NCBI GenBank assembly: GCA_015058275.1
Contig: SVCQ01000017.1
Coordinates: 1-45,314, forward strand
DNA from: Clostridiales bacterium
Lineage (GTDB): Bacteria; Bacillota; Clostridia; Peptostreptococcales; Anaerovoracaceae
DNA length: 45,314 nt
Direction: 5' to 3'
The first letter of the stretch is position 1. Each line of letters begins with the position of its first letter. Both the position numbers and the translations under genes were made by a program. Shown piece by piece: positions 2,352-42,260 of the stretch. The notes beneath the pieces are model-generated. The model was not told the DNA's origin. It did no database searches and saw only the letters and a program-made list of their open reading frames with translations.

Positions 2352-2503
2352 GTGCTGTTATACCCGAGTGGATAACACCGCAACGTGAGGACTAAATGCT
2401 TTCTCTAATAATAGCGGCGTTGCCGTAAGGTCGAAAGCATTGATCTCCGGTGGCGGGCACCTTCGATAAATGCGAGAGCGTGTCCACGAGGGTATAACAG
2501 CAC
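2352..2503 (+). repeat. Family A palindromic element, copy A1, with outer 14-bp inverted repeat
   Basis: The core has stem X AATGCTTTC (2395-2403), hairpin CGGCGTTGCCG (2415-2425), TAAGG, X' GAAAGCATT (2433-2441), then GATCTCCG, a GTG/CAC hairpin, CTTCGATAA and a second partner AATGC (2469-2473) that could pair with X' instead of X. Around this, GTGCTGTTATACCC (2352-2365) is perfectly complementary to GGGTATAACAGCAC (2490-2503). A competing partner ATAACACCGC (2372-2381) can pair with GCGGTG..GTTAT at the left end. The copy fills the leader of the EF-G-like gene, whose AGGAGG follows at 2515. The sequence shows strong folding potential; function is unknown. Confidence 0.8.
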
Positions 2504-2525
2504 TGCACTTAAGCAGGAGGAACAA

Positions 2526-4466
2526 ATGAAAGGCTATTCAACTGACAAGATCCGCAACATCGTACTGCTGGGACACGGCGGAGTAGGCAAGACAACCTTC
2601 CTTGAGGCAGCACTCCTCAATACAAAGGTCATCAGCAGACTCGGCAAGGTCGAGGACGGCAATACCGTATCCGACTATGAAAAGATGGAGATCGAAAAGG
2701 GATACACCATCAACCAGACCCTCGTTCCTGTAGAGTTCAAGGGTACAAAGCTCAACTTCATCGACACTCCGGGATTCTTCGACTTCGCCGGAGAGGCCAG
2801 AGCGGCACTCTCGACAGGCGCGACAGCCATCATCATGGTGGACGCGTCCTCCGGCATCCAGGTCGGTACAGAGAAGGCCTGGGATCTCGTAAAGGAATAC
2901 AACGCTCCTGCATTCTTCGTGATCAGCAAGACTGACAAGGACAACATCGACGTAGACGGCGTCATCGCCGCTATCCAGGACAAGTTCGGTTCGGCCTGCG
3001 TAACACTCGACGACAAGGACGCGCTCGACGAGGCCGTAGCAGGTGCTGATGAGGCTCTCATGGAGAAGTTCTTTGAGGGCGAGCCGTTCACAGACGAGGA
3101 GTTCGCAAACGGACTGGCTACAGGTATCCACAACGGAGACATCATGCCTATCCTCAAGATGTGCAGCATGACAGGCGACGGAGTTGAGGAAGTCCTCGAT
3201 TCCCTCTGCAAGTACGTACCAAAGCCTGACACAGTAGTCACAGCTGCCAAGAATGACAGCGACGAGGATATCGAGATCAAGTGCGATGCAAGCGGCGACC
3301 TCGTGCTCTTCGTCTTCAAGACACTGGCTGACCCGTTCCTCGGCAAGATCTCATACGCCAAGGTAGTATCCGGCACACTCAAGCCGGGTGCTGATGTATA
3401 CAACCCTCGTTCAGAGAAGTCCGAGAAGCTCGGCTCCGTATTCTTCGTAAGAGGCAAGTCCCAGGAGAACGCAGACAGCGTAGCAGCCGGCGACCTCGTA
3501 GCTCTCGGCAAGCTCCAGAACACAAAGACAGGCGACACGCTCTGCAGCAAGAGCAAGCAGGTAAGGATCAATCCGATCGCCTTCCCGAGCCCATGCTACT
3601 TCGTAGCAGTAGAGGCTGCCGACAAGAACGAGGACGAAAAGATGGCTCAGGGTCTCTCCAGACTCATGGAAGAGGATCCTACATTCGTACTCGAGAGGAA
3701 CGCAGAGACACACCAGACTCTGCTCGGAGGTCAGGGAGACATCCAGCTGGGTATCATCCAGGCTAAGCTCAAGGACAGATACGGCGTAAGCGTAAATGTC
3801 GTACCGCAGAAGATCGCGTACAGAGAGACCATCAAGGGCAACTCCGATGTACAGGGCAAGCACAAAAAGCAGTCCGGCGGTGCAGGACAGTACGGTGACG
3901 TACACATCAGATTCTCGCCTTCCCAGGAGGAAGGCCTCGAGTTCAGCGAAGAGCTCTTCGGCGGATCGGTTCCTAAGAATTACGTACCTGCAGTTGAGAA
4001 GGGACTTCTCGAGTGCATGGATAAGGGCCCTCTCGCGGGATGCAAGGTACAGAACATCAAGGCAGTGCTCTATGACGGTTCGTATCACGAAGTAGACTCC
4101 AACGAAGTATCGTTCAAGATCGCTGCTTCGCTGGCGTTCAAGAAGGGTATCGTAGAGGCCAAGCCGTGCCTGCTTGAGCCTATCATGAAGCTCGACATCA
4201 CGGTACCTGAGGCATATGTTGGCTCCGTAATGGGAGACCTGCCTAACAGACGCGGCGTCGTACTCGGCATGGATCCTATCCAAGGCGGACAGGTCCTCCA
4301 CGCGGAGGCTCCGCAGTCCGAGCTCTTCGACTATGCCATCGCTCTGAGATCGATGACACAGGCAAGAGGAAGCTTCACGGTAGAGTTCGCAAGATACGCC
4401 GAACTGCCTTCGAACCTCGCAGAGAAGGTAATCGCAGCCTATAAGGCGTCTCAGGAAGAAAAATAG
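2526..4466 (+). CDS. Elongation factor G-like translational GTPase (EF-G paralogue)
   Basis: The 646-aa product has the domain order of EF-G. The P-loop is GHGGVGKTT (about residues 16-24), not the AHIDAGKTT of canonical EF-G. It has the switch II motif DTPGFFDF in place of DTPGHVDF, no NKxD in canonical form (SKTDKD instead), a domain IV loop GGAGQYGDVHIRF, and EF-G domain V features (MGDLPNRRG). It is shorter than the canonical fusA product in this window (688 aa, at 43088). These changes match the EF-G-like paralogue family, whose cellular role is not settled. A clear AGGAGG lies 5 nt upstream of the ATG. Its last codons form one arm of repeat A2, and the gene is bracketed by A elements on both sides. 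Confidence 0.88.
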   Translation: MKGYSTDKIRNIVLLGHGGVGKTTFLEAALLNTKVISRLGKVEDGNTVSDYEKMEIEKGYTINQTLVPVEFKGTKLNFIDTPGFFDFAGEARAALSTGATAIIMVDASSGIQVGTEKAWDLVKEYNAPAFFVISKTDKDNIDVDGVIAAIQDKFGSACVTLDDKDALDEAVAGADEALMEKFFEGEPFTDEEFANGLATGIHNGDIMPILKMCSMTGDGVEEVLDSLCKYVPKPDTVVTAAKNDSDEDIEIKCDASGDLVLFVFKTLADPFLGKISYAKVVSGTLKPGADVYNPRSEKSEKLGSVFFVRGKSQENADSVAAGDLVALGKLQNTKTGDTLCSKSKQVRINPIAFPSPCYFVAVEAADKNEDEKMAQGLSRLMEEDPTFVLERNAETHQTLLGGQGDIQLGIIQAKLKDRYGVSVNVVPQKIAYRETIKGNSDVQGKHKKQSGGAGQYGDVHIRFSPSQEEGLEFSEELFGGSVPKNYVPAVEKGLLECMDKGPLAGCKVQNIKAVLYDGSYHEVDSNEVSFKIAASLAFKKGIVEAKPCLLEPIMKLDITVPEAYVGSVMGDLPNRRGVVLGMDPIQGGQVLHAEAPQSELFDYAIALRSMTQARGSFTVEFARYAELPSNLAEKVIAAYKASQEEK

Positions 4467-4527
4467 CGACTTCGTCGTAAGGAAAGACGCCTTGATCTCC
4501 GTCGGCGATGCTCCTTCGATAAAAGGC
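4443..4527 (+). repeat. Family A element, copy A2 (starts inside the EF-G-like gene)
   Basis: Stem X AAGGCGTCT (4443-4451) lies within the last coding codons and is perfectly complementary to X' AGACGCCTT (4485-4493). The inner hairpin is CGACTTCGTCG instead of CGGCGTTGCCG, a G-C to A-T covariant pair. TAAGG follows, then GATCTCCG...CTTCGATAA and AAGGC (4523-4527), which can pair with the end of X'. The stop codon of the upstream gene lies inside the loop. Confidence 0.75.
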
Positions 4528-4610
4528 TTCCCAAGAGGAGAAGTAACGGCGTTGCCGTAAGGACGGAAGCCTTGATCTCCGTCGGCGATGCTCCTTCGAT
4601 AAAAGGCTTC
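4523..4610 (+). repeat. Family A element, copy A3 (tandem with A2)
   Basis: X AAGGCTTC (4523-4530), hairpin CGGCGTTGCCG (4547-4557), TAAGG, X' GAAGCCTT (4566-4573), then GATCTCCG...CTTCGATAA and a second perfect partner AAGGCTTC (4603-4610). X' is therefore flanked by two identical complementary arms. The 40 bp at 4491-4530 recur exactly at 4571-4610, giving an 80-bp period with A2. Confidence 0.8.
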
Positions 4611-4639
4611 ACAGGAAGAGAAGTAAAATCAACTACAGG

Positions 4640-4664
4640 CTCCCGGCTCCGGCCGGGAGTTTTT
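4640..4664 (+). terminator. Rho-independent terminator after the EF-G-like gene
   Basis: CTCCCGGC (4640-4647) and GCCGGGAG (4652-4659) form an 8-bp GC-rich stem with a four-base loop, followed by TTTTT (4660-4664). It ends transcription coming through the A2/A3 repeats. Confidence 0.9.
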
Positions 4665-4692
4665 ATATGTCGCGCAGTGATTCAAATGGTTG

Positions 4693-4698
4693 TATAAT
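4693..4698 (+). promoter_or_regulatory. Candidate -10 box for the lipoprotein gene
   Basis: A perfect TATAAT lies 48 bp upstream of the start codon and just after the preceding terminator. The matching -35 position is poor. Confidence 0.4.
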
Positions 4699-4746
4699 CA
4701 GTGTAGTCACAGACTCTTGTTTAAATGAGGGGAGGTAGATGCAGAA

Positions 4747-5673
4747 ATGAAAAAGAAATTTGCTATATTGCTCGGACTGATCATGGTGATGAGCTTCTCG
4801 TTTGCTGCATGCGGCAGCGGAGACAGCGGCCAGGATCTTTCGGACAGTAAGTATCTCGGTGAATGGGTAGCATCCGGCATCTCGGTCGGCGATGAATCCG
4901 AGGCTATCGAAGGCGGGGTGTGGAAACTGACTCTCAAGGAAGACGGTACAGGCACCTTCGTCTCGACTGAGGCTGACGGTACCGAGGAGGTCTCGAACAT
5001 CACATGGGAGCTGACCGATGAGGGATTCAAGACCAAGGGCGACACCAAGCTGACATTCAAGGACAACGGCGATACGCTCTCTACAAAGATCGTGGGCGTT
5101 GATCTCAGCTTCGTAAGACCTGGTGAGGAAGGCCCGGACGACGGTGCTCCGGATATCGGGACTCAGTACGGCTACATGGGCCAGGATCCGGCGGAGTGCG
5201 CTGTATGGAAGTATCTGGCAACGGAGATCGCTTCACAGTATGACGCCGGTGAGGGTACAGATGTGATCACTGTGCCTGTGGTCCGCATCATAAAGACAGA
5301 CAGAGACAATGATGATGGTGATGACAACGATGTGGAATTCTACGGAGATTTCTGGGTAAACAACTACGTAGTCGAAGGCGACACTCTCAAATGCGTTTCG
5401 GGCGGAGACTATGCGGGCAAGATAGAAGTGATCAAAACCGGCGACGAGTATACTGTCAAGGAATTTGAGCAGGTGCAGGACGGCGGAAACTTTGAGCCAA
5501 GCGCAAGGGATATCTTCGAAGAGGACTACGATGCCTTCATGAAGGTCTACAGCGATACCGACGGCCTTAAGGCTCTGAGGACAAAGGGCCTTTCCGATTA
5601 CGTAAAGACCAACGGCCTGAGCGTTACGAAGTATCAGGATGAAGGCTGGGATCCGGTGGATCTTGATCTCTAG
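4747..5673 (+). CDS. Putative lipoprotein with a lipocalin-like N-terminal half
   Basis: The 308-aa product starts with a lipoprotein signal peptide (MKKKFAILLG, hydrophobic core, lipobox S-F-A-A-C with the acylated cysteine at residue 22), so it should be anchored outside the membrane. Residues about 35-130 alternate short polar turns and beta strands around LGEWVASGI and WKLTLKEDGTGTF, like small lipocalin-type or 'DUF-lipocalin' domains. The C-terminal half is acidic and unrecognised. The ribosome binding site GGGGAGG is 11 nt upstream. Its stop codon overlaps the radA stop codon on the other strand. I cannot assign a function; membrane anchoring is the only firm inference. Confidence 0.7.
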   Translation: MKKKFAILLGLIMVMSFSFAACGSGDSGQDLSDSKYLGEWVASGISVGDESEAIEGGVWKLTLKEDGTGTFVSTEADGTEEVSNITWELTDEGFKTKGDTKLTFKDNGDTLSTKIVGVDLSFVRPGEEGPDDGAPDIGTQYGYMGQDPAECAVWKYLATEIASQYDAGEGTDVITVPVVRIIKTDRDNDDGDDNDVEFYGDFWVNNYVVEGDTLKCVSGGDYAGKIEVIKTGDEYTVKEFEQVQDGGNFEPSARDIFEEDYDAFMKVYSDTDGLKALRTKGLSDYVKTNGLSVTKYQDEGWDPVDLDL

Positions 5674-7043
5674 GAGAGGTAAGCGCGTATAGCGTCACTG
5701 ATATTTGAGGCTCCAAAGACTTTGATCTTTGGGGTCTCTTTTATTTGGACGGCGTTTTTGTCCGGCAGGATGACGGCTTCGTAGCCGAGGCGGACCGCCT
5801 CCTGGATTATCCTGTCGGCATTGGAAATGGAGCGGAGATTGCCGGTAAGACCGACTTCTCCGGCGGCGACTATCCTGCGGCGCGAGGCGCGGCTCTTGAA
5901 CGAGCTGTAGATGGCCAGGGCGACAGCAAGGTCGGTAGCAGTGCTGCCTGTGTTCATGCCGCCCACGACATTGACGTAGACGTCATAATCGAGCAGGCTT
6001 AAGCCTGCTTTTTTCTCCAGGACGGCGAGTATCATGTTGAGACGGTTCTGGCTGATGCCGATGGCCGTCCTCCTCGCGAAGCCGACATTGGCTCTTGTGA
6101 CAAGAGCCTGTATCTCGAAGAATACCGGGCGGCTTCCCTCGTATACAGCGGAGATGACGGAGCCCTCCTCGGACCCGCTGTTCTCTATGAGGCTGCCTGA
6201 GAGGTCAGGGACCTCGATCATACCGTCTGAAGTCATGCGGAAGGCGCCTATCTCGTCTGTAGTGCCGAAGCGGTTCTTGAATGAGCGCAGTATGCGCAGG
6301 TCGCGGTCGCGCTCGCCGCTGAAGCTGAGCACGCAGTCCACCATGTGCTCGATGGTCTTAGGACCTGCGAGCTCGCCGGACTTTGTGACATGGGCGACTA
6401 TGAATACAGGAACGTTGTTGTTTTTGGCGTATCTGATCAGGAGGTTGGAGCACTCCCTGATCTGGGTGATGCTGCCGGCGACCGAGTCGGCCGACAGTGA
6501 GTACATCGTCTGTATCGAATCGATTATGAGGAATCGCGGCTTTATGTTGTCGCAGGCCGCGAGGATGTTCTCCATGTTGGTCTCCGGATAGATGAAGAGA
6601 GAGTCGCTGATGGTCCCGAGGACGCGGTCAGCCCTCAGCTTGACCTGCTCCTCCGACTCCTCGCCGCTGACGTAGAGTACAGGGCCGTACTTGTCTGCGA
6701 TCCTGCCTGCGGCCTGGGCGATGATGGTGGACTTGCCTATGCCGGGCTCGCCGGATATGAGAGTGAGGGAGCCCGGGACTATGCCGCCTCCGAGCACGCG
6801 GTCGAGCTCGGAAATGCCTGAACCGAGGCGCGAGTAATCGTGAGTGCCGACCTCGCTCAGCCTGACCGGGCGGCCCTCCGTACCGATGCGCCTTCTTGTA
6901 TCCTTGGCAGCCTCCTCTACGGGAGCTACCTTGTGCTCGACTATGGTGTTCCATGAGCCGCAGTAAGAACACTGCCCCTGCCAGGCAGTGTACTCGTTGC
7001 CGCATTCGGTGCACAGATATACAGTCTTAGTCTTCTTTGCCAT
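5670..7043 (-). CDS. radA: DNA repair protein RadA (Sms)
   Basis: The 457-aa product is a RecA-like ATPase with DnaB-type helicase activity that helps RecA-driven branch migration in recombination and repair. It begins with a four-cysteine zinc finger (C11, C14, C25, C28 in LCTECGNEYTAWQGQCSYC), has Walker A GEPGIGKST at about 98-106, the RadA-specific KNRFG motif near residue 255, and a Lon-like C-terminal domain (NVVGGMNTGSTATDLAVALA). It is the last gene of a minus-strand operon: its ATG lies 17 nt inside the end of the histidine kinase gene, with GAGGG upstream. In many Firmicutes radA precedes disA; here it does not. Confidence 0.96.
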   Translation of the reverse strand: MAKKTKTVYLCTECGNEYTAWQGQCSYCGSWNTIVEHKVAPVEEAAKDTRRRIGTEGRPVRLSEVGTHDYSRLGSGISELDRVLGGGIVPGSLTLISGEPGIGKSTIIAQAAGRIADKYGPVLYVSGEESEEQVKLRADRVLGTISDSLFIYPETNMENILAACDNIKPRFLIIDSIQTMYSLSADSVAGSITQIRECSNLLIRYAKNNNVPVFIVAHVTKSGELAGPKTIEHMVDCVLSFSGERDRDLRILRSFKNRFGTTDEIGAFRMTSDGMIEVPDLSGSLIENSGSEEGSVISAVYEGSRPVFFEIQALVTRANVGFARRTAIGISQNRLNMILAVLEKKAGLSLLDYDVYVNVVGGMNTGSTATDLAVALAIYSSFKSRASRRRIVAAGEVGLTGNLRSISNADRIIQEAVRLGYEAVILPDKNAVQIKETPKIKVFGASNISDAIRAYLS

Positions 7044-8535
7044 CTGATCCCTCTGTATCGGCTGACGCCGCTTTGCTCTTGTCGTTTTTGACGTTTGGCT
7101 TCCTTACGGTCTCCATCTCAAACCAGAAGTCGGAGCCCTTGCCCTCCTCACTCTCTACGCCGTATCTGGCGTTGTGGAGGTTGAGCAGGCCCTTGACTAT
7201 GGACAGACCGAGGCCCGTGCCCTCGATATCTCTCTCGTGGTTGGCCGAAGTCCGGTAGTACTTGTCCCAGACGTGGCTGATCTCGTCGGACGGGATGCCG
7301 ATGCCGTGGTCTATGCAGTGGAAGGCGACCTTGCGGTTGCCCTTATTGAGCCTGATGTCCACGAATTTGTTGTCTCCCGAGTACTTGACCGCGTTGGAGA
7401 CGAAGTTGGTCATGACCTGCATGATGCGGCTGCGGTCGCCGACTATCCAGGCAGACTTGCACGGATGGAACTGTATCTCAAAGTCCTCGGATGAAGCCAG
7501 GACCCTGAAGCTCTCGTATACATCCTCGGCCGCTTCGACCAGGTCGAAGGTCTCCATGTGCATCTCGACGTTGTTGGACTGGAGATTGGATACCGAGAGC
7601 ATGTCCGTCACCATGCGGTTGAGCCGCTCGGTCTCCTGTATGATGACCCCTAGGTCGGAGTTGCGCTTCTCCGGATTGTCTCCGGATATGTCTATTATCT
7701 TCTCTGCGTATGAACGTATCATGGTGAGCGGAGTCTTGAGGTCGTGCGATACGTTGGCGAGGATCTCGCGCTGGTAGAAGTCGGTCTTCTCCATCTCGTA
7801 TGAGGCCTTGTTGAGGGCCCTGGCGAGCTCCTTGGTCTCGGTAAAGCCGGCCCCGTCGAACTTGACGTTGTAATTGCCCTGGGAGAGCTCCTTGGCGGAT
7901 TCTGTCAGGTTCTCGATAGGTGCCGAGAGTCTCCTCGACAGCGCGTATGCAAGGAAGAACGACACGAGCACGACTATGAGCGAAATGTATATGAGCATGC
8001 TCCTTAGTATCCTGAAGGTGACTTCGTCAGGGTAGAGAGGAGCGATGATATACATTATGTCGGAATCGCTGCCCGATCTGATATAGGCCGCATAGACAAG
8101 ACGCGAGTTATTGCCGGTAGAGGATCTCGTCTCGGTGACGCTCTCAAGAGGCGAGCTCTCGAGCTTGGATCGTATCCTCGCGATGTCGTTTGCGAATGCG
8201 CCTGTGTCCTTGACGGTACGGGTGCCGTCGTATATGAGACGGGAATCCGATACGTCTATCCTGATGTAGATGCCGTTGGTACCGGCGGTCTGCACCGCAT
8301 AGGTATCAAAGCTGTCGCGGTCCTGGATGAACTGGGTCTCGAGCGCATTGGCTGTGCGTATGACCTCCTGTGTCCTGGCGCGCGCGTAGTAGGTGTTGAT
8401 AAATGAATTGAACAGGCCCCAGAGCACTGCGACCAGGAAGAGCGCAAAAATGACGAACGACATGAGGGTCGTCGTCTTGATGCTGCTCGTATCCACTTTT
8501 GGTTGTCTGGCTCTGTCGCCTGTGTGGTCTGCCAT
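7027..8535 (-). CDS. Sensor histidine kinase
   Basis: The 502-aa membrane kinase should autophosphorylate and pass phosphate to the response regulator encoded 18 bp upstream. It has a first membrane segment at about 24-46, an extracytoplasmic sensor region of about 120 residues, a second segment at about 178-198, a HAMP linker, a dimerisation domain with the phospho-acceptor H264 in NVSHDLKTPL, and an ATPase domain with N-, G1- (HGIGI) and G2-type (GTGLGLSIV) boxes. GGAG lies upstream of the start. The C-terminal tail is charged and low in complexity, and its end overlaps the radA start. The stimulus is unknown. Confidence 0.92.
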   Translation of the reverse strand: MADHTGDRARQPKVDTSSIKTTTLMSFVIFALFLVAVLWGLFNSFINTYYARARTQEVIRTANALETQFIQDRDSFDTYAVQTAGTNGIYIRIDVSDSRLIYDGTRTVKDTGAFANDIARIRSKLESSPLESVTETRSSTGNNSRLVYAAYIRSGSDSDIMYIIAPLYPDEVTFRILRSMLIYISLIVVLVSFFLAYALSRRLSAPIENLTESAKELSQGNYNVKFDGAGFTETKELARALNKASYEMEKTDFYQREILANVSHDLKTPLTMIRSYAEKIIDISGDNPEKRNSDLGVIIQETERLNRMVTDMLSVSNLQSNNVEMHMETFDLVEAAEDVYESFRVLASSEDFEIQFHPCKSAWIVGDRSRIMQVMTNFVSNAVKYSGDNKFVDIRLNKGNRKVAFHCIDHGIGIPSDEISHVWDKYYRTSANHERDIEGTGLGLSIVKGLLNLHNARYGVESEEGKGSDFWFEMETVRKPNVKNDKSKAASADTEGSDGKED

Positions 8536-8553
8536 GGATAGCTCCGCCTGTCG

Positions 8554-9231
8554 TTAATTGTCGTACTCGAACTTGTAGCCGACGCCTCTCAGAGTGACGA
8601 TGAACTTCCTGTAAGGGCCGAGGCAGTTACGGAGGTTCTTGACGTGCGTATCGATGGTGCGGTCATCGCCGAAGAAGTCGTAGCCCCAGATATCCTCGAG
8701 GAGCTTCTCTCTTGAGAGGGCTATGTTGCGGTTTTGTATCATGTAGAACAAAAGATCATACTCCTTTGGAGTGAGCTCGACACGCTCGCCGTCAACTGTG
8801 ATGGTGCGTGCGGCCATGTTGACCTCGAGGCCGTCGAACTTCTGGATGACAGGGGCGTTCTTTTCGGACGCATCAACACGGCTGAGTACCGCGTTGACCC
8901 TGGCCATGAGCTCCTTTGGGCTGAACGGCTTGACGACGTAGTCATCTATGCCGAGCTCGAATCCGAAGAGCTTGTCGTACTCCTCGCCTCTTGCGGAAAG
9001 CATGATGACAGGGATGTTCTTGATCTTTTGTATCTCCTTGACGGCACTGAAACCGTCGAGCTTAGGCATCATAATATCCATGATGATAAGGTCGTAATCG
9101 TTGAGCTTGACAAGGCCTATGGCGCTCATGCCGTCGGCAGCCTCCTCGGCCTCGTAGCCGCTGAATTCCGCGTACTCTCTGATGACCTCGCGGATCTTGT
9201 CTTCGTCATCTACTATAAGAAGTCTTTTCAT
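8554..9231 (-). CDS. Response regulator, OmpR/PhoB family
   Basis: The 225-aa protein has a receiver domain (D9, D10, phospho-acceptor D52 in IIMDIMMP, K101 in VVKPF) followed by a winged-helix DNA-binding domain (LTPKEYDLLFYMI ... WGYDFFGDDRTIDTHVKNLR ... TLRGVGYKFE). It is the first gene of the minus-strand regulator-kinase-radA operon, with AGGGAGG 6 nt before the ATG. Linking a two-component system to radA by translational overlap suggests co-expression, but not necessarily a shared function. Confidence 0.94.
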   Translation of the reverse strand: MKRLLIVDDEDKIREVIREYAEFSGYEAEEAADGMSAIGLVKLNDYDLIIMDIMMPKLDGFSAVKEIQKIKNIPVIMLSARGEEYDKLFGFELGIDDYVVKPFSPKELMARVNAVLSRVDASEKNAPVIQKFDGLEVNMAARTITVDGERVELTPKEYDLLFYMIQNRNIALSREKLLEDIWGYDFFGDDRTIDTHVKNLRNCLGPYRKFIVTLRGVGYKFEYDN

Positions 9232-9549
9232 CTCGGTCCTCCCTTAATAAGGAAAAATGTATGGAAATATTGTACTAAATCGCTGGCGCGATAGCCAGCG
9301 ACCGTGACCGCCTTTCCAGAGCGCTATTCTTTTTCGAAAAGAAAAAGGAGTAGCGTTCTTTTCTTTTGTTGTGTATCCTCGAATGTACCACCAAACGATA
9401 ATACTCACAAAAGAGAAAACCCTTCTCCTCTTCGTATGCGTATTGTAACAGACTGTAGCACATTCAACAATATTTTGTTTTCAGGCCTACCACCTTAGTG
9501 AAAATGCGATGCTTCGTTATTTCTTTTTCTCTATGGAAGGAGGCCTTTT
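9232..9549. other. Non-coding gap between the regulator operon and the insertion element
   Basis: About 318 bp with no supported gene. It holds a perfect 7-bp palindrome at 9281-9300, a larger hairpin at 9322-9355 (CGCTA/TAGCG outside, CTTTTTC/GAAAAAG inside, followed by a T-rich run), and probably the left end of the IS91-like element. The base composition is more AT-rich than the flanking genes. The exact junction could not be located. Confidence 0.5.
9281..9300. promoter_or_regulatory. Inverted repeat near the response regulator promoter
   Basis: CGCTGGC (9281-9287) and GCCAGCG (9294-9300) form a perfect 7-bp palindrome. On the minus strand it ends 6 bp before TACAAT, the best -10 candidate for the response regulator, so it covers the -35 region. 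It could be an operator; it could equally belong to the edge of the mobile element. Confidence 0.4.
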
Positions 9550-10419
9550 ATGAGCCGCAAAGAATATCTTGACACTTATCTCACTATGATCGCCCTTCGC
9601 GGTCTTACTGATCATACGCTCAAGTCCTACAAGACCTACATCTCTGCATATCTCGACTTTGTCTTTGATCTTCTGAAGAAAGATCCCGCCGATGTCACCT
9701 GGGATGAGATGCGTCTTTTCATCAAGCATCTTCAGGAGACACGGCATCTCTCTGATCGGACGATCAATGCAGCGATCTCTCAACTGAGATTCTTCACCTT
9801 GTATATACTGCATAAGTCCTGGGATCAGACGCAGCTCCCGATGAGAAAATTCGATCAGTACATGCCTTTTGTTCCCTCGCGTCAGGAAGTGACATCTTTC
9901 ATCAACGCGATCGATGACCCGAAAACAAGGGCTATGGTCATTCTCATGTATAGTGCAGGTCTCAGAGTCAGTGAAGTTTGCAGCATCAAGTGCGAAGACA
10001 TCGACCGCAGCAATATGCGAATACATATTGTCCACAGCAAGAATCGTTCAGATCGCTATGCCATGCTATCCCCAATCGCTCTTGCCGAACTTGAGAAGTA
10101 CTGGCGCAGGTGCGGAAGGCCGCGCAATTATCTTTTTCCTCAAAGGCATGATCCGGATAAGCCAAATCGTCCTCAGATCGTAGAGTGGCATATGCGAAAA
10201 GCTGAAGATAAGCTCGGCTGGGAACATCGCTTCACATGCCATTCTCTTCGTCATGCTTTTGCCACGCACTTCTACGAAGACACTCACGATCTGCTGACCC
10301 TCAAGCATCTTCTCGGGCACAGATCACTGAACTCTACGACGATCTATGTCACGCTCTCGAATGCGACTCTCAGAAAGTATGCAAGCCCATTCGATGCTCT
10401 GAAGGTGAATCATGGATAG
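9550..10419 (+). CDS. Tyrosine recombinase (integrase/XerC-like) of the IS91-type element
   Basis: The 289-aa product has an N-terminal SAM-like core-binding domain (about 1-90) and a catalytic domain with R139 in SAGLRVSEVC, H231 and R234 in CHSLRHAFATH, H257 in LLGHRSLNST, and the nucleophile Y266 in TTIYVTL. The catalytic set appears complete. AAGGAGG lies 8 nt before the ATG. The gene overlaps the transposase start by 8 bp (ATGGATAG), so the two are translationally coupled. It may resolve or assist transposition of the element; a chromosomal XerC role is less likely given the partner gene. Confidence 0.9.
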   Translation: MSRKEYLDTYLTMIALRGLTDHTLKSYKTYISAYLDFVFDLLKKDPADVTWDEMRLFIKHLQETRHLSDRTINAAISQLRFFTLYILHKSWDQTQLPMRKFDQYMPFVPSRQEVTSFINAIDDPKTRAMVILMYSAGLRVSEVCSIKCEDIDRSNMRIHIVHSKNRSDRYAMLSPIALAELEKYWRRCGRPRNYLFPQRHDPDKPNRPQIVEWHMRKAEDKLGWEHRFTCHSLRHAFATHFYEDTHDLLTLKHLLGHRSLNSTTIYVTLSNATLRKYASPFDALKVNHG

Positions 10420-11572
10420 CCGTTACCCGATCCGCGAGATCTTTTTGGATTCGCTTGACTGGTATCTGCAGAACAACAGCCCATCGTCAGACCAGATGGC
10501 TGCTGCCAATGCCATACGGACATGCAAGACCGGCGAACTTGGTTACAATGCCAGCAAGTGTGATGAGTGCGGGCACATCGAGCTTCACAGCTGTTCATGC
10601 CGCAATCGCTCCTGTCCAAATTGTCAGTCTGTCCTCAAAGAGGTCTGGATCGACAAGCGTCGCAGCGAGGTGCTTGACGCGAGTTACTTCCATGTCGTCT
10701 TCACCGTGCCTCATACTCTGAATGCGCTGTTCCTCGCGAACCAGAAGCTGCTTTACTCGCTTCTGTTCAGTGCGGCATCCGAGACGCTGCTTACTCTTTC
10801 GCAGGATAAGCGTTATCTCGGCGCAGAGCCCGGCATCATCATGGTGCTGCACACCTGGGGCCAGAATCTGGCGTACCATCCGCATGTGCACTGCATCGTT
10901 TCTGGCGCCGGTCTTACCCGTGACCACCATCTTGTGAAGAGCGGCAAGTCGTTCTTCATCCCGATCAAGGCTGCGATGAAGATGTTCCGTGGCAAGTTCA
11001 TGGCTTCTCTCAAGAGCTGCCGCTCTTCTGGCAGGCTCATCATTCCGGAGTCGTGCTCCGATCTTGCCTTGCCTGAAGGCTGGCAGTCGTTTGTTGATCG
11101 GCTGTACAGTACTGACTGGTGCCCGTACATCAAGGAGACCTTCAACGGATATGGCAATGCCATCAGCTACCTCGGTCGCTACACTCATCGTGTCGCTATC
11201 TCGAACGGCCGTATCTTGGATATGACTGATGACACTGTCACCTTCTGGTACAAGGACTACCGCGACGGTAGTGCCCGCAAGGAGATGACTCTCACTCATG
11301 AGGAATTCATTCGCCGCTTCCTGATGCATGTATTGCCCAGAAGATTCCAGAAGATACGCTACTACGGATTCCTTTCCAACGGCTCCAAGAAAAAGAAACT
11401 TCGCCTTCTCTTCGAGCTTCAGGGACATCAGCAGTTCACTGCGAAATTTTCTGCTGACACTCCGAAGGATGTGATCCTTTCCGAGGTGCTCGGCACCGAT
11501 GTGCATGTATGTCCTTGCTGCGGCAAGCCGTCCATGCGCTATCTCGGCAGGAGATATTATCTCAGGCCGTAG
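10412..11572 (+). CDS. IS91-family (IS801/IS1294-like) HUH transposase
   Basis: The 386-aa rolling-circle-type transposase has an N-terminal zinc ribbon (CDECGHIELHSCSC, then SCPNCQS), the metal-binding HUH motif P-H158-V-H160-C in the segment WGQNLAYHPHVHCIVSG, and the tyrosine region ISYLGRYTHRVAISNGRI. The C-terminus has a further CPCC motif. The length is normal and no frameshift is seen. The enzyme should nick single-stranded ends and move the element without target-site duplication. Confidence 0.94.
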   Translation: MDSRYPIREIFLDSLDWYLQNNSPSSDQMAAANAIRTCKTGELGYNASKCDECGHIELHSCSCRNRSCPNCQSVLKEVWIDKRRSEVLDASYFHVVFTVPHTLNALFLANQKLLYSLLFSAASETLLTLSQDKRYLGAEPGIIMVLHTWGQNLAYHPHVHCIVSGAGLTRDHHLVKSGKSFFIPIKAAMKMFRGKFMASLKSCRSSGRLIIPESCSDLALPEGWQSFVDRLYSTDWCPYIKETFNGYGNAISYLGRYTHRVAISNGRILDMTDDTVTFWYKDYRDGSARKEMTLTHEEFIRRFLMHVLPRRFQKIRYYGFLSNGSKKKKLRLLFELQGHQQFTAKFSADTPKDVILSEVLGTDVHVCPCCGKPSMRYLGRRYYLRP

Positions 11573-11893
11573 CGTTACTCAACTGAATATGTTTTTCAGC
11601 CTCGCTCCGGCGGGGCCGTTTGGAGTTCGTTGAGATGCCCTTGCAGACTGGCTCAAGCCTGTCTGCTGCTCTCAAAGCATATCCTCTATCCTTCACGATT
11701 CATATTTTCAAGGTTCTCTGGCGGGATCGTTCTCCATATCCTCCCCAGTCGATTCAGTACAATTCGGAAGAACCTCATTTCCCGCAGTTACGTTCTTGCA
11801 ACTGCGTATTTTTATGGGCGGGAAATGTGGTACTTCCCTAAGGAATTGTACCATACCCGTATTTCGCTAGTCCATACGGAGCGTATCGGCCGG
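11573..11893. other. Non-coding stretch with a large hairpin, probable right flank of the IS91-like element
   Basis: About 320 bp without a supported gene. It contains a two-level hairpin at 11776-11827: CATTTCCCGC (11776-11785) pairs with GCGGGAAATG (11818-11827) around an inner CGCAGTT...AACTGCG stem that is followed by TATTTTTA. Such a subterminal palindrome fits an IS91-type terminus or a terminator for the transposase gene. GTACCAC-like words occur on both flanks (9389-9395; inverted at 11828-11834), but I cannot prove they are ends. Confidence 0.5.
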
Positions 11894-11922: not shown

Positions 11923-11995
11923 AGCAATTTTATTTTTATGTTTGCTTTTTTGTACACGAAAATGTATAATCGGGGTGTATAAAGGAGAGTTGTCC

Positions 11996-17711: not shown

Positions 17712-17815
17712 CAAATAGAAGGGTACCTGATATATCCCTTGCGGAGTACGGCTCTCGCCTCGTTGCGGCTTAACGCAGCGGTACTAAGCTCTGTCGGCGC
17801 CTGCGGCTTGCCAGT
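17712..17815 (+). other. Structured spacer after cysS
   Basis: This segment contains several local palindromes, for example GTTGCG with CGCAGC around 17762-17779 and repeated GGCTT words. I see no terminator with a T-run and no gene. It joins directly to repeat A4. Confidence 0.4.
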
Positions 17816-17895
17816 AATGCTATCTATGATGGTACGGCGTTGCCGTGAGGTAGATAGCATTGACCTCCGGAGACTAGGCTCCTCCGGTAACCGCT
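17816..17895 (+). repeat. Family A element, copy A4
   Basis: X AATGCTATCTA (17816-17826) is perfectly complementary over 11 bp to X' TAGATAGCATT (17851-17861). The inner hairpin CGGCGTTGCCG is at 17835-17845, followed by TGAGG. The second hairpin is GACCTCCG, GGAG/CTCC, CTCCGGTAA. The ATC/GAT pair of other copies is replaced by ACC/GGT, a compensatory change. Confidence 0.8.
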
Positions 17896-17957
17896 AAGTG
17901 CCGGCTACCGCAAAGCCTCCGCGCGGGACATATGCAGGTCCCTGTAGTAATAATATA

Positions 17958-18854: not shown

Positions 18855-18935
18855 AGCAGTTATCGAAGGAGCCCAGCCTCCGTAGATCAATGCTTTCATC
18901 ATCACGGCAACGCCGTTATGAATGAAGAAAGCATT
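18855..18935 (-). repeat. Family A element, copy A5 (inverted relative to genes)
   Basis: Read on the minus strand: AATGCTTTC (18935-18927), hairpin CGGCGTTGCCG (18915-18905), then GAAAGCATT (18897-18889), GATCTACG, a GGAGGC/GCTCC hairpin and CTTCGATAA (18868-18860). The flanking genes thyA and mrnC are on the plus strand, so orientation is not tied to transcription. Confidence 0.78.
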
Positions 18936-18949
18936 TAGGATATAAGAGA

Positions 18950-30209: not shown

Positions 30210-30830
30210 ATGACAGATATCATCGAAACTACAGACAACACAGAGATCACCGAAACCAGAGAGCAGGTCAAGCCGAGCGTTTCCCCGCTTGAGGGCGAAG
30301 GCCTCCGTGGTGACGGTACCGCCAAGTGGTACGTCGTCCACACATACTCCGGTTACGAGAATAAAGTAAAGACGAGCATCGACAGGATGGTTGAGTACCG
30401 CGGAATGCAGGACCTCATCCAGGAAGTCGTCATTCCTACAGAGGACAGGATCGAGATCAAAGACGGTGTCAAAAAGGTCAAGACCCGCAAGCTCTTCCCG
30501 GGATACGTAGTCATCAAGATGGTCGTCAACAACGAGACCTGGTACCTCGTACGTAACACAGAGGGCGTCACAGGCTTCGTCGGACACGGTTCCGATCCTA
30601 TTCCTCTGACCAAGGAGGAGATCGTAAGGATGGGAATCGAAAAACTCAGGATCGATCTGGATATCGAGGTTGGCGATACGATCCGTATCATCGGCGGTGT
30701 CTTCGAAGGCCAGCTTGGCATCGTAGAAGCCATCAATCCGGAGAAGCAGATCGTAAAGGTCCGCATCTCGATGTTCGGTAGAGATACTCCTGCGGAGATC
30801 GAGTTCTCGCAGGTGAGCAAGCTGAGATGA
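30210..30830 (+). CDS. nusG: Transcription termination/antitermination protein NusG
   Basis: The 206-aa protein has a 35-residue acidic N-terminal extension, then the NGN domain (KWYVVHTYSGYENKVKTSI ... LFPGYVVIKMV ... NTEGVTGFVGHGSDPIPL) and a C-terminal KOW domain (VGDTIRIIGGVFEGQLGIVEAI). It binds RNA polymerase and modulates pausing. AGGAG is upstream. The stop codon TGA is the first three bases of the B1 repeat stem. Confidence 0.97.
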   Translation: MTDIIETTDNTEITETREQVKPSVSPLEGEGLRGDGTAKWYVVHTYSGYENKVKTSIDRMVEYRGMQDLIQEVVIPTEDRIEIKDGVKKVKTRKLFPGYVVIKMVVNNETWYLVRNTEGVTGFVGHGSDPIPLTKEEIVRMGIEKLRIDLDIEVGDTIRIIGGVFEGQLGIVEAINPEKQIVKVRISMFGRDTPAEIEFSQVSKLR

Positions 30831-31036
30831 CTTGTCCTGACGATCGGCGATCGAGACCTATCCCGATTTCGGAACGAAATCGATGGAAGGTCCGATGCCA
30901 GACTTGCCCGAAGCGCAGCGAGGATGCAAGTCACGGCTGCACATAGTGCGACGGCAGAGTCATGGAAAGTCATTTACGCAGTACGCCGTCGACTGACGAG
31001 TGATAACGAAGTCAGAGACGATGCGTACGAGCCGTT
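30828..31036 (+). repeat. Family B modular palindromic element, copy B1 (nusG-rplK)
   Basis: The outer helix is TGACTTGTCCTGAC (30828-30841) with GTCATGGAAAGTCA (30959-30972), each strand having one bulge. Inside is CGATTTCG/CGAAATCG with flanking GACC/GGTC, then a module GATGCCAG-ACTTGC...GCAAGT-CACGGCTG. After the outer helix comes TTTACGCA, a stem GTACGC (30981-30986) with GCGTAC (31023-31028), and GAGCCGTT (31029-31036). The element occupies nearly the whole 242-bp gap and starts on the nusG stop codon. Confidence 0.78.
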
Positions 31037-32940: not shown

Positions 32941-33011
32941 GCTGATATTTCAAAATTCAAACTTAAGCGGCCGCAAGGCCATTCATCCAATTTAGAAAAG
33001 GAGAAATAACA

Positions 33012-33380
33012 ATGGATAAGGATAAAATCATTGAGGCTCTTAAGAGCATGAGCATTCTTGAGATCAACGAGCTCGTTAAGGCTCTCGAGGAAGAGTTCGG
33101 AGTAAGCGCAGTAGCAGTAGCAGCACCTGCAGCAGGCGGAGCAGCCGGCGGCGAGGCAGCTGAGGAGAAGAGCGAATTCAACGTTGTCCTCAAAGAGGTT
33201 GGTCAGGAAAAGATCAAGGTTATCAAGGCTGTCAGAGAAGCTACAGGTCTCGGCCTGAAGGAAGCAAAGGAACTCGTAGACGGAGCTCCTGCTACAGTCA
33301 AGGAAGGCGCACTGCCTGACGAGGCTAACGCTATGAAGGAAGCACTTGAGGCTGTAGGAGCCGTAGTCGAACTCCAGTAG
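33012..33380 (+). CDS. rplL: 50S ribosomal protein L7/L12
   Basis: The 122-aa stalk protein has the dimerising N-domain ([20 protein letters not shown]), an Ala/Gly hinge ([13 protein letters not shown]) and the C-domain that contacts factors ([27 protein letters not shown]). AAAGGAG is upstream. A 434-bp non-coding region separates it from rpoB. Confidence 0.98.
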
Positions 33381-33465
33381 TTCCTCGATAATCTCCGCCA
33401 TACTTTGTTGCTGCTCGGAAATCTTTCACTTACATACTTCGGTGTATGCGCGTTCAAGATTTCCT

Positions 33466-33651
33466 CGCGCGCCTCGTCTGGCGAAGATTCTCATCGGAAC
33501 AAAGCTTTAAATCTCTGCGTCGCCTAATAGCTTAATAGCTGGCGCAGAACGAGATCTCCGCGCGCCTCGTCTGGCGAAGATTCTCATCGGAACAAGGCTT
33601 TAAATCTCTGCGTCGCCTAATAGCTTAATAGCTGGCGCAGAACGAGATCTC
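33466..33651 (+). repeat. 93-bp tandem duplication (family D) upstream of rpoB
   Basis: Unit 33466-33558 is followed by unit 33559-33651 with one visible mismatch (AAAGCTTTAA versus AAGGCTTTAA). Each unit contains a CTGCG...CGCAG hairpin around TAATAGCTTAATAGCT and ends in the palindrome GAGATCTC. Confidence 0.95.
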
Positions 33652-33717
33652 CTCGCCGGGGAGCATAAATCCGGCGCAAAAATTGGACCGTGCGATATCG
33701 GCCCGACCCACGCAATA

Positions 33718-33746
33718 AAATGAGCCCCGTACTTCGAGGCTCATTT
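33718..33746 (+). promoter_or_regulatory. Hairpin in the rpoB leader
   Basis: AAATGAGCC (33718-33726) is perfectly complementary to GGCTCATTT (33738-33746). Only ATTT follows, so a full terminator is doubtful; an attenuator or processing stem is possible. Confidence 0.55.
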
Positions 33747-33814
33747 CGTGCGTAATAAGAGCCGTTAAATCGGCCCGAAAGCATGTACTTTTTTGTAAAC
33801 AAGGAGACAAATCT

Positions 33815-36800
33815 ATGCCAACCCCAGTAAAAGTTGGAAGAAAAGAGCGTATGAGCTTTGCCAAGATCAATGAGGTCTGCGAAATGCCTAACCTCATCGA
33901 TGTCCAGACAAAGTCATACAAGTGGTTCATCGAAGAGGGCCTCGGAGAGGTTCTCGAAGACGTATCTCCTATCCGCGATACCACCAACACTCTGAGTCTG
34001 GAATTCGCGGACTATCATTTCTCCGATACTCCTAAGTACGATCAGGAGGAGTGCAAGGAGAGAGATGCCACATACGCCACTTCGCTGACCGTAAAGGTCA
34101 GACTGATCAACCGCGAGACCGGTGAGATCAAGGAGCAGGACGTATTTATGGGAGATTTCCCTCTCATGACAGAGAAGGGCACCTTCGTCTACAACGGAGC
34201 CGAGAGAGCCATCGTTACTCAGATGGTACGTTCTCCGGGACCGTACTATGACGTAGCTACGGACAAGTCCAACCAGAAACTGTACAGCTCGCAGGTCATC
34301 CCTAACAGAGGAGCATGGCTCGAGTACGAGACAGACTCGCAGGGCATCCTCTACGTAAGAGTAGACAGGACAAGAAAACAGCCGCTGACTTCCTTCCTCA
34401 GAGCGCTCGGCATCATCGATCCGGAAGCGCTTCAGCTGAGCAGCAACGAAGACATCATCGCCATCTTCGGCGAGGACGACAGACTTCTGCGCACACTCGA
34501 GAAGGACACAACAAAGACCAGCGCTGAGGGACTCAGAGAACTCTACAGAAGACTGAGACCGGGAGAGCCTCCTACAGTCGAGAACGCAAGATCCATGCTG
34601 ATGGCTCTGCTCTTCGATGAGAGGCGTTATGACCTGGCCAAGGTCGGCAGATTCAAGTACAACCGCAAGCTGGGACTCCACGACAGACTCGTGGACACAG
34701 TTGCGGCCGAAGACGTCATCGATCCTAACACCGGCGAAGTCCTCGTTGAGGAGGGCGGAGAGATCTCGAGATCCCTCGCAATGGTGATCGAGGATGCAGG
34801 CGTCAAGTCGGTGCTCGTATACAGCAAGAGCGAGGATGATGAGGACGGCGTTGTCACTAAGGTCATCGGCAACAACTTCGTTGATCCGGCCAAGTACATC
34901 GACTTCGACCTCACTCCTTACAAGCTGTCCGAGAAGGTCTTCTATCCTGTGCTCAAGGACATCATCGACCAGGCAGCCGGAGACGAGGACAAGCTCAAGG
35001 CGGGCATTGCCAACAGGAGAAGAGAGCTGAGCCCTAAGCACATCATCCTTGAGGATATCGTCGCTTCGATCAGCTATCTGATCAACCTTGCACACGGCGT
35101 AGGCGATACAGACGACATCGACCACCTCAGCAACAGAAGGCTCAAGACGGTCGGCGAGCTTCTGCAGAACCAGTGCAGGATCGGCTTCGCCAGAATGGAG
35201 AAGACCATCAGAGAGAGAATGACTACTGAGAACTCGACTCCTCAGCAGCTCATCAACATCCGTCCTGTAACAGCAGCTATCAAGGAGTTCTTCGGATCAT
35301 CCCAGCTGTCGCAGTTCATGGACCAGAACAACCCTCTTGCTGAGCTGACTCACAAGAGAAGACTCTCGGCGCTCGGACCTGGCGGACTTTCGAGAGAAAG
35401 AGCCGGCATGGAGGTCAGAGACGTACACTACTCGCACTACGGACGTATGTGCCCGATCGAGACTCCTGAAGGTCCTAACATCGGACTTATCGGATCTCTC
35501 ACCACATACGGCATCATCAACGAGTACGGATTCATCGAGACTCCGTACCGCAGAGTAGACAAGGAGACGGGTGTCGTTACAACTGACGTTGAGTATCTGG
35601 CTGCGGCCGACGAGGATCTCATGATCGTCGCACAGGCCAACGAGCCGCTCGATGAGCAGGGACACTTCGTCAACAACAAGGTAGCCGTAAGAGGCATCAA
35701 GGGTGAGATCACAATGGTGCCTAAGAATGAAGTCGACTACATGGACGTATCCCCTAAGCAGGTAGTATCCGTGGCTACAGCCATGATCCCGTTCCTCGAG
35801 AACGACGACGCTAACCGTGCCCTGATGGGATCCAACATGCAGAGACAGGCAGTTCCTCTGCTCGTCACCGAGGCTCCGTACATCGGAACAGGTATCGAGT
35901 ACAAGGCAGCCTGCGACTCCGGCGCTGTAGTGCTCTGCAAGCACGCAGGTACAGTCACATTCGTTGACGCCAACACCGTCAGGGTCACAAGAGACGATGA
36001 CGGCACAGTCGACGAGTACAAGATGCTCAAGTTCAAGCGCTCCAACCAGGGTACATGCATCAACCAGAGACCTATCGTCTCCTTCGGTGAGCACCTCGAA
36101 GAGGGTGAGGTCGTAGCTGACGGTCCTTCCACAAGCATGGGAGAGATCTCGCTCGGCAAGAACCTCCTCATCGGATTCATGACCTGGGAGGGCTACAACT
36201 ACGAGGACGCTATCGTACTCAACGAGAGACTGCTCATGGACGACGTGCTCACTTCGCTTCACATCGAGAAGCACGAGTGCGAGGCCAGAGACACCAAGCT
36301 CGGACCTGAAGAGATCACAAGGGACATCCCGAACCTGCCTCAGGACATGCTCAAGGAGCTCGACGAGGACGGTATCGTCAGGATCGGAGCTGAGGTCAAG
36401 TCGAACGACATCCTCGTCGGCAAGCTGACTCCTAAGAGCGAGACAGACCTCACACCTGAAGCCAGGATGCTGCGCGCTATCTTCGGCGAGAAGTCCAAGG
36501 AAGTAAGGGATTCGTCCCTCAAGCTGCCGCACGGTGAGGAAGGTATCGTCATCGACGTCAGAGTATTCGACAAGACAAACAGCCAGGAGCTCCCTCCTGG
36601 AGTAAACAAGATCGTAAGAGTCTACGTTGCTACAAAGAGAAAGATCAACGTCGGCGATAAGATGGCGGGACGCCACGGTAACAAGGGTGTTATCTCCAGG
36701 ATCCTGCCTCAGGAGGACATGCCGTTCAAAGAGGACGGTGAGCCGCTCCAGGTAATGCTCAACCCTCTGGGCGTACCGTCCCGAATGAACGTAGGACAGG

Positions 36801-37663
36801 TACTCGAGGTCCATCTCGGACTCGCAGCCAAGTCAAAGGGCTGGTACGTATCCACTCCGGTATTCGACGGAGCGAGCGAGAAGGACGTTATCAAAATGCT
36901 CACAGAGGAAGGCTATCCGGAGACAGGCAAGCTGAGACTGAGAGACGGACGTACGGGCGAGTACTTCGACAGCCCTGTAACGGTCGGCTACATGTACATG
37001 CTCAAGCTCCACCACCTGGTAGACGACAAGATCCACGCCAGATCGACGGGCCCGTACTCGCTGGTAACACAGCAGCCGCTCGGCGGTAAGGCTCAGTTCG
37101 GCGGACAGAGATTCGGAGAGATGGAGGTATGGGCGCTCGAGGCTTACGGCGCTGCGTACACTCTCCAGGAGATCCTGACCGTCAAGTCCGACGATATCAT
37201 CGGACGTACAAAGACATACGAATCCATCATCAACGGAGTCAACATCCCTGAACCGGGCATCCCTGAGTCGTTCAAGGTACTCATCAAGGAGCTCCAGGCA
37301 CTCGCTCTGGATATCCGCACCAAGGCCGGCGACGATTCCGAGATCAAGATCAGAGAGACATCCGAGTATGAGGGAGCGCTTACATTCGACAGGATGATAA
37401 GCGAGAACGACAGAAGAGCAGAGCGCGAGAGAAGAGAGCTCGAGCAGGATGCCGAAATGGCAGAGGCAGCGGCCGAGATCAATGCGGCTGAGGCTGAGGA
37501 CGATGCAGAGCTCGATATCGACGCTATCTCTTCGCTGGTAGAGTCCATGGCAATGGCTTCGGCCGAGCCGGATATGGACCTGACAGAAGCTGTAGAGATG
37601 GACAGCCTCGAAGACCTGGCAGAAGCCGAGGCCGGCGAGACGTTCGAGGATGAAGAGCAGTAA
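33815..37663 (+). CDS. rpoB: DNA-directed RNA polymerase beta subunit
   Basis: The 1282-aa protein has all beta-subunit landmarks: the N-terminal [18 protein letters not shown], the rifampicin region [31 protein letters not shown] with sensitive-type residues (D, H and S at the usual resistance positions), [15 protein letters not shown], and [11 protein letters not shown] near the active site. It is about 90 residues longer than B. subtilis RpoB, mostly from an acidic Ala/Glu/Asp tail after residue about 1205. AAGGAG is upstream, and rpoC follows after 15 bp. Confidence 0.99.
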
Positions 37664-37678
37664 AGGAGGGCTCAAAGC

Positions 37679-41323
<3,645 letters not shown>

Positions 41324-41341
41324 TCTGTAACCAGATACTGA

Positions 41342-41376
41342 GAACGGAGCGCGATATACAGCGCTCCGTTCTTTTT
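41342..41376 (+). terminator. Rho-independent terminator after rpoC
   Basis: GAACGGAGCGC (41342-41352) pairs with GCGCTCCGTTC (41361-41371) over 11 bp, followed by TTTTT. It separates the rpoBC and str operons. Confidence 0.95.
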
Positions 41377-41417
41377 GCGGCCGGCCGGGCCGGGATCCGC
41401 TCCGTTTTGGGCCCGGA

Positions 41418-41458
41418 GTTGACGCCGGATCAGCGGATCCGCCCGCAAAAACGTCAAC
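41418..41458 (+). repeat. Degenerate family C hairpin, copy C3
   Basis: GTTGACG (41418-41424) pairs with CGTCAAC (41452-41458). The interior starts CCGGAT as in C1 and C2 but then has GGATC...GATCC instead. It lies between the rpoC terminator and the rpsL promoter. Confidence 0.55.
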
Positions 41459-41504
41459 AACCCTTTGATATGCAGAAAGGCTGCAAAAATAAAGGCGGAA
41501 ATCG

Positions 41505-41533
41505 TTGACATATCAGGGGCTTGCTAGTAAAAT
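41505..41533 (+). promoter_or_regulatory. Promoter of the str operon (rpsL-rpsG-fusA-tuf)
   Basis: A perfect TTGACA (41505-41510), a 17-bp spacer and TAAAAT (41528-41533) lie 71 bp before rpsL. It comes after the rpoC terminator, so the str genes have their own transcription start. Confidence 0.88.
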
Positions 41534-41604
41534 ATACAAGTTCGATTGCGCCTTCACACAGTTGGCGGCAACGGATAATACAACTATTATGAAAGGAGAA
41601 AAGA

Positions 41605-42021
41605 ATGCCTACAATTAACCAGTTAGTACGTCAGGGCAGACAGAGCTCAGTCAAGAAGTCGACAGCTCCTGCGCTCGGTAAGAACATGAACACACTTCGC
41701 AAGACTCTTACCGACGTTAACTCCCCTCAGAAGAGAGGCGTTTGCGTAGCAGTCAAGACTGTCACACCTAAGAAGCCGAATTCAGCTCTTAGAAAAGTCG
41801 CAAGAGTACGTCTGACCAACGGAATGGAAGTTACTGCTTACATTCCTGGTATTGGCCACAACCTGCAGGAGCACAGCGTTGTTCTCGTAAGAGGCGGCAG
41901 AGTCAAGGACCTTCCTGGTGTTAGATATCACATCATCAGAGGTACACTAGACGCTTCCGGCGTTGCAGACCGTGGACAGGGCCGTTCCAAGTACGGAGCA
42001 AAGAAGCCTAAGAAAAAGTAA
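41605..42021 (+). CDS. rpsL: 30S ribosomal protein S12
   Basis: The 138-aa protein starts [12 protein letters not shown] and has [20 protein letters not shown] and [18 protein letters not shown], with the lysines at both classical streptomycin-resistance positions unchanged. GAAAGGAG is upstream. Its stop codon TAA is part of the first arm of repeat A6. Confidence 0.99.
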
Positions 42022-42260
42022 GGTTTTCTGCTGATCCATACGCCGTTTCGAGACTTGTCCTGACGACTGGCAAACGAAGTGAAGCCAGAGTCATGGAAAG
42101 TCCGATGCCAGAATTGCCCGAAGCAAAGCGAGGGTGCAATTCACGGCTGGCGTAAGGACGAAAACCTTGATCTTCGGGGGCGGTGCCCCTCCGATAAAGT
42201 CTCTCTTCTGATTTATATACGCCTTCGGCGCGAAGCGGCGTTGCCGCAAGGAGGAGAGTG
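42020..42260 (+). repeat. Composite element: family A copy A6 with a nested family B module (B2)
   Basis: A-type stem X AAGGTTTTC (42020-42028) is perfectly complementary to X' GAAAACCTT (42160-42168), 131 bp away. Between them is B2: helix GACTTGTCCTGAC (42052-42064) with GTCATGGAAAGTC (42090-42102), inner ACTGGC/GCCAG, then GCCAG (42107-42111) with CTGGC (42147-42151) enclosing AATTGC/GCAATT. GTAAGG, X', GATCTTCG, GGGGCGGTGCCCC and CTCCGATAA complete the A part. A further GCGGCGTTGCCGC hairpin (42235-42247) follows. Confidence 0.78.

Follow-up and report, generated by a model that had tools for sequence, protein, structure and literature searches.

A dispersed palindromic DNA repeat tied to −10 boxes and stop codons in one bacterial family

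The palindrome-associated transposable elements (PATEs), which are derived from IS200/IS605, are among the described systems closest to the element reported here, a non-coding palindromic unit of about 75-80 bp present in six copies in a 45,314-nt stretch of Clostridiales DNA (contig SVCQ01000017.1, hereafter the window). Like the PATEs, the element is short, lacks terminal inverted repeats and carries hairpins near both ends; it appears to insert 3′ of a short fixed target that its right end resembles, and by reading its inner TTGA is able to pair with both ends. It differs in that its copy number is not tracked by Y1 transposase genes, in that its arms are 9-11 bp long with perfect covariation, and in its targets, which are the −10 box or the stop codon TAA. 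Miniature inverted-repeat transposable elements (MITEs) and repetitive extragenic palindromic (REP)/REPIN sequences are likewise small, many-copy, dispersed palindromic intergenic repeats, whereas the element was without terminal inverted repeats by reading and its arms vary between many loci yet stay complementary; the comparison with REP sequences covered general features. The attC sites of integrons are also folded single-strand sites whose arms are variable in sequence but complementary; no cassette-like setting was noticed around the element, no search for attC motifs, integrase or cassettes having been made. Putative mobile promoters, reportedly described by Matus-Garcia in 2012, share with the element the dispersal of promoter sequences upstream of unrelated genes, but the element sits inside the −10 box, is found also at stop codons and, in other genera, bears a second TATAAT-like box at its far end. 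Matus-Garcia 2012 appears in the reference section of PMC4596501.

In our judgement, held with evenly balanced confidence, this is a family-wide, non-autonomous mobile palindromic DNA element of about 75-80 bp that would enter −10 boxes and stop codons and leave both intact. The unit is composed, in order, of an arm X, 10 variable bases, a small hairpin (HP1), the second arm X′, TTGA and a further hairpin (HP2), ending in GATAA or GGTAA in the window copies, and its general order can be written TAA (X starts at its AA)-X-N10-HP1-X′-TTGA-HP2-(G/T)ATA(G)AA. The initial annotation had listed six window copies of an undescribed element with covarying stems, and re-reading of the sequence confirmed them in their places and in this order, with X and its own X′ perfectly complementary in 6/6. 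A covariance model built from 25 copies of the same genome found further copies there, with 34 matches at E<1e-4, and gave 403 matches in 40 of the 47 genomes of the genus and none in the other 7. No gathering-level Rfam match was obtained for the six copies and none at E≤1 in seven copy-bearing loci, the search for known families covering Rfam and no DNA-repeat database. Neither a known family nor a lack of further copies, which the initial annotation had named as outcomes that would speak against it, was thus encountered, and no description recognisable as this element was found in the literature searched, as judged from titles and abstract openings.

The element was dispersed across the family. 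In an order-wide sample of 393 genomes, 53 contained matches. Of these, 23 belong to this genus and the other 30 to 15 further genera within the family, and no match outside the family was found among the sampled genomes; as this survey applied stricter filters and scored 11 candidates in each genome, it may have overlooked weak copies. A strict pattern run over a collection of 84,980 species returned 64 stretches, whose record titles read Mogibacterium sp., Clostridiales or Clostridia. The titles of the RGIG series name sheep and goat gut, and the RUG series presumably comes from the rumen. Carriage by phages or plasmids was not supported: no viral contig matched a strict pattern, one two-unit stretch had no match in phages, and one window copy had none in plasmids.

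A target preference was evident from the sites occupied in the genus, for which about half of the 403 copies were used and corresponding sites of several species were counted separately. For TAAG-type copies, the TAA ended an open frame of 100 or more codons in 28/55 cases versus 1011/21435 control TAA, and the genes with stop-codon copies (frames of at least 60 codons) included those for EF-Tu (tuf), EF-G, S12 (rpsL), S2, IF-1, SecY, GroEL, acetate kinase and iron hydrogenase. TAAT-type copies that were not at stops started inside TATAAT in 30/56 cases versus a background of 595/5810, and those starting in TATAAT had TG one base before the box in 18/30 versus 70/595. Among leading promoter-type copies, 19/46 had a −35-like hexamer, with four or more of the six positions agreeing, versus 12.5% in shuffles, and TAAA-type copies were, by reading, mostly nested in other repeats. 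The element behaves as dispersed DNA associated with −10 boxes and stop codons, and has more the look of an undescribed mobile element than of an RNA gene.

Filled and empty sites were compared at the promoter of a glyoxalase-like gene, which was unfilled in G012 and G057 (CTATAATAGGAAGCG, that is CTATAAT-AGGAAGCG) and filled in G004 (CTATAATGG...GATAGAATCAGGAAGCG, that is CTATAAT-GG...GATAG-AAT-CAGGAAGCG), where one base, C, also differed. The comparison placed the insertion within the −10 box, at T^AA(T), where AA(T) alone was repeated and the box was left usable, and made the likely ends of the element recognisable; precise loss in G012 and G057 instead of gain in G004 may also have occurred. 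No terminal inverted repeats were found by reading, the left end being AATGGTTTC and the right end CTCCGATAG, with X′ internal. A target duplication of 16-24 bp had been considered as right flanks resemble X+N10, and was rejected because only AA(T) is repeated at the glyoxalase locus; such flanks are more readily explained as what is left of tandem copies. At the EF-G-like gene, with its repeated KASQEEK-stop stretches, a long duplication may still have taken place. A small open reading frame (ORF) within the element was rejected by eye, its frame not being kept.

The stems of the element covaried strongly. Among 83 distinct rows, 98.2% of cells paired and 129 cells were altered on both sides versus 33±4 in shuffles; two-sided changes numbered 214 versus 50±5 in 113 rows, and 160 versus 41±9 in 70 rows from other genera; since all three alignments were fitted to the model, they are biased towards the structure. 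Two-sided changes were present in all four helices, and the covariation of X with X′ is not due to chance. In a gapless-arm subset of 192 copies (15 of 207 distinct copies being dropped), a perfect 9-bp X:X′ stem was found in 172, formed by 40 different perfect X sequences, and the departures from Watson-Crick pairing amounted to 13 G-U, 10 A-C and 15 other mismatches. G-U made up 13/1703 canonical X pairs (0.76%) versus 142/1678 (8.5%) among 154 terminator-like hairpins taken from the same DNA, and was thus about 11 times rarer in the element; these hairpins were chosen by folding energy, so that A-C is uncountable in them. They replaced the L10 leader, which was dropped as a G-U control for being too conserved (3 G-U and 3 A-C in 351 cells). 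The 35 distinct X:X′ pairs of other genera held 10 G-U and 11 A-C. As G-U is rare and A-C about equally common, the perfect, DNA-type pairing of the arms has the look of pairing or copying at the DNA level. If an RNA helix were being selected, G-U would be expected to outnumber A-C, which is not so for X:X′, and in this respect the element does not behave as a structured RNA. Of the earlier claim of a selected or copied fold, the undescribed repeat with covarying stems held up, while its reading as structured RNA was less well supported, the pairing being almost purely Watson-Crick and promoter-type X, which spans about −9 to −1, being expected upstream of the transcription start, so that the promoter concerned should not transcribe X together with X′.

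In the other genera, units were kept if they had the expected HP1 and at least 6 of 9 X:X′ matches, a selection that favours pairing; in this set at least one row, L390, looks spurious and L419 is without a genome label. Of its 63 units, 55 began in TATAAT, 46 of the 55 with an extended −10 motif, and a TATAAT-like box was present near the right end in 53/63, no background being computed for this right box. One genome, G171, contributed 32 units; 31/32 of these began in TATAAT versus 24/31 elsewhere, and the right-end box was found in 29/32 versus 24/31. G171 had 75 matches, and its units, each about 78 bp, were strung into arrays as long as nine. Arrays preceded the genes of methionyl-tRNA synthetase (MetRS), a quinolinate phosphoribosyltransferase and a PF00144-family protein; a ribosome hibernation factor gene and the gene of an AraC-type regulator were each preceded by single units. 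The genes downstream of other-genera units were unrelated, promoter activity being predicted from the boxes only. The likeness of HP1-HP2 averaged 0.78 among 8 G171 loci (28 pairs) versus 0.56 between genomes (564 pairs, maximum 0.90), and this excess within the genome suggests that copies spread within lineages. Among 25 pairs of tandem copies or remnants, X was perfect in 24/25 leading and 3/25 trailing members, and trailing edits were denser in X (31/225 positions) than in the next 19 positions (25/475; p=2.6e-4). The spoiled trailing X may mean that one active left end suffices, or that a competitor for X′ is removed.

Tandem copies were also found in the window, at the 3′ end of the EF-G-like gene (2526..4466, + strand), the C-terminus of which was recovered in 42/47 genomes of the genus. 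Copy A (4443..4522, +) has X AAGGCGTCT at 4443-4451, HP1 at 4466-4478, X′ AGACGCCTT at 4485-4493 and HP2 at 4494-4522, and copy B (4523..4602, +) has X AAGGCTTCC at 4523-4531, HP1 at 4546-4558, X′ GGAAGCCTT at 4565-4573 and HP2 at 4574-4602. As a correction to the initial annotation, X of copy A (4443) is coding sequence, lying within the terminal KASQEEK-stop of the gene. The left part of copy B spells KASQEEK-stop again, and a third such stretch (AAGGCTTCACAGGAAGAGAAGTAA, 4603..4626, +) has no core after it; the stretches are thus repeated after each core (window 4443-4626; loci L161 and L171). A comparison of the stretches on either side of each core in G000, G023 and G058 gave 19 base differences, one of which changes E to D, and since all 19 fall at third codon positions both sides seem once to have been coding. 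The copies at this gene lie, by reading, between stop codon and terminator. Among 41 loci read, full copies, remnants and empty sites were scattered over the tree, which indicates high turnover, and copies of different genomes were identical at 52/80 to 78/78 positions, often at only about 65-86%.

The remaining four window copies lie elsewhere. Copy 1 (2393..2469, +) is of the TAAA type and separates the EF-G-like gene from that of a class II tRNA synthetase, with X AATGCTTTC at 2395-2403, HP1 at 2414-2426, X′ GAAAGCATT at 2433-2441 and HP2 at 2442-2469, and its flanks recur at another copy in the same genome. Copy 4 (17814..17890, +), of the TAAT type, has X AATGCTATC at 17816-17824, HP1 at 17834-17846, X′ GATAGCATT at 17853-17861 and HP2 at 17862-17890, and is located inside the GCGGTACTAAGC repeat between the cysteinyl-tRNA synthetase and thymidylate synthase genes. 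Copy 5 (18860..18937, − strand) follows the thymidylate synthase gene inside a GATCC..CTCAGGATGAC repeat, with X AATGCTTTC at 18935-18927, HP1 at 18916-18904, X′ GAAAGCATT at 18897-18889 and HP2 at 18888-18860. The flanks of copies 1, 4 and 5 (2395, 17816 and 18855) recur around other copies, and by reading these three are therefore nested in other repeats. Copy 6 (42019..42197, +) begins where the S12 gene (rpsL) ends, at its TAA stop codon, with X AAGGTTTTC at 42020-42028, HP1 arms at 42039-42045 and 42149-42157, X′ GAAAACCTT at 42160-42168 and HP2 at 42169-42197. Its unusual length is due to an insert in HP1, about 103 nt from a second repeat, which is absent from the corresponding rpsL copy in G022.

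This second repeat (GACTTGTCCTGACGA...GAGTCATGGAAAGTC, about 103 nt) was found in the window at 42045-42150, 30822-31000 and 42889-42976, and by eye it resembles DNA before a Y1 transposase gene of the same genome. Many copies of the element in this genome are carried by a recurrent GTCATCCTGAGCG...GGATCTC repeat (loci L031-L044; window 18855-18945), and a GCGGTACTAAGC...GCTAAGTGCCGGCTACCGC repeat (about 17775-17925 in the window; loci L046, L050 and L052) carries the element as well, elsewhere apparently in either orientation. Apart from these repeats, an Rfam group II intron match was present at the contig edge (window 10-75), and a 93-bp tandem duplication, 99% identical, was located at 33466-33651, upstream of an ORF (33815-37663) that we take, from its size and place, to be perhaps rpoB.

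Mobility of the element is supported by the copies which, by reading, are nested in several other repeats. Several observations weigh against it. The clean comparison of filled and empty sites comes from one locus only, and no mobiliser was found: a Y1 transposase was present in 24/47 and a reverse transcriptase in 18/47 of the genomes, and both candidates were rejected as neither tracks copy number in these incomplete metagenome-assembled genomes (MAGs). Y1 was not found in G012 (25 copies), G021 (16), G047 (13) and G049 (10), all likewise incomplete MAGs. The nearest relatives lay in other genomes for 26/31 stop-type and 20/23 promoter-type copies, and there were accordingly no recent bursts in this genus. 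In the other genera X:X′ was perfect in only 46/63 units, with 19/32 in G171 versus 27/31 elsewhere, so that pairing is looser inside the G171 arrays. Finally, at two orthologous promoters the element was 92-99% identical versus 57-64% at third codon positions, which could mean conserved function. A cis-regulatory element under selection would account for this identity; it might be a structured 5′ or 3′ untranslated region, or a promoter in whose transcript X′ pairs with the melted non-template X (−9 to −1) and controls re-initiation. The same promoters and stops are occupied in several species, many host genes are housekeeping genes, and the spoiled trailing X arms would leave no competition for X′. 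We regard this explanation as unlikely, though the likeliest of the alternatives, since presence and absence differ between related species, no promoter is found at X in stop-codon copies, G-U pairs are few and many copies are nested or in tandem. The 100 bases upstream at the two promoters were moreover 75-95% identical, and one of these flanks (94/99) was as conserved as the element.

Alternatively, the element might be a neutral quasi-palindrome in a dispersed repeat, its arms kept perfect by replication template switching with no selection on the stem. A passage of PMC8794818 proposes template switching as creator and maintainer of perfect hairpins, and the nearly pure Watson-Crick covariation, the similar frequency of A-C and G-U, and the multi-base changes at corresponding sites of X and X′ are as expected from it. 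X is not free, however, with positions 1, 2, 6 and 9 varying little, the HP2 consensus retains an unpaired 3x3 loop, and trailing X:X′ pairs were left uncorrected, X being edited in 22/25 pairs; we therefore hold this origin to be improbable. Slightly more doubtful still is a structured non-coding RNA family, for example a 3′ stabiliser of mRNA at stop codons. The marked covariation, which extends to two-sided changes in each of the four helices, and the position of the EF-G-like copies ahead of a terminator argue for it, but at promoter-type copies (55/63 units in other genera) X should not be transcribed with X′, and G-U rarity speaks against an RNA helix.

If the element is indeed a mobile DNA element, landing in a −10 box would keep TATAAT and landing at TAA would keep the stop codon, and with either left in place after insertion hosts should tolerate it. 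X:X′ would be kept perfectly paired as DNA, as a single-strand hairpin at the left end, for moving or copying, and the activity would be supplied in trans by a host enzyme or by an enzyme since lost. More speculatively, it could move as single-stranded DNA, and the −10 box could be hit because the non-template strand is melted in open promoters. In its fullest form, which we think improbable, a single-stranded element would paste into the melted non-template −10 strand, guided by its internal target complement (X′-CATTGAA versus TATAATG-X), and would rebuild a −10 box at the far end, so that the promoter survives and arrays grow.

If the reading as a mobile element is right, one bacterial family harbours an element that exploits two tolerant, TA-rich kinds of site beside genes, −10 boxes and stop codons, without destroying either, and promoters would have a natural route to multiply into tandem arrays. 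It would also be a warning that covariation of such strength, usually taken as proof of RNA structure, can arise even if the two arms should not share a transcript.

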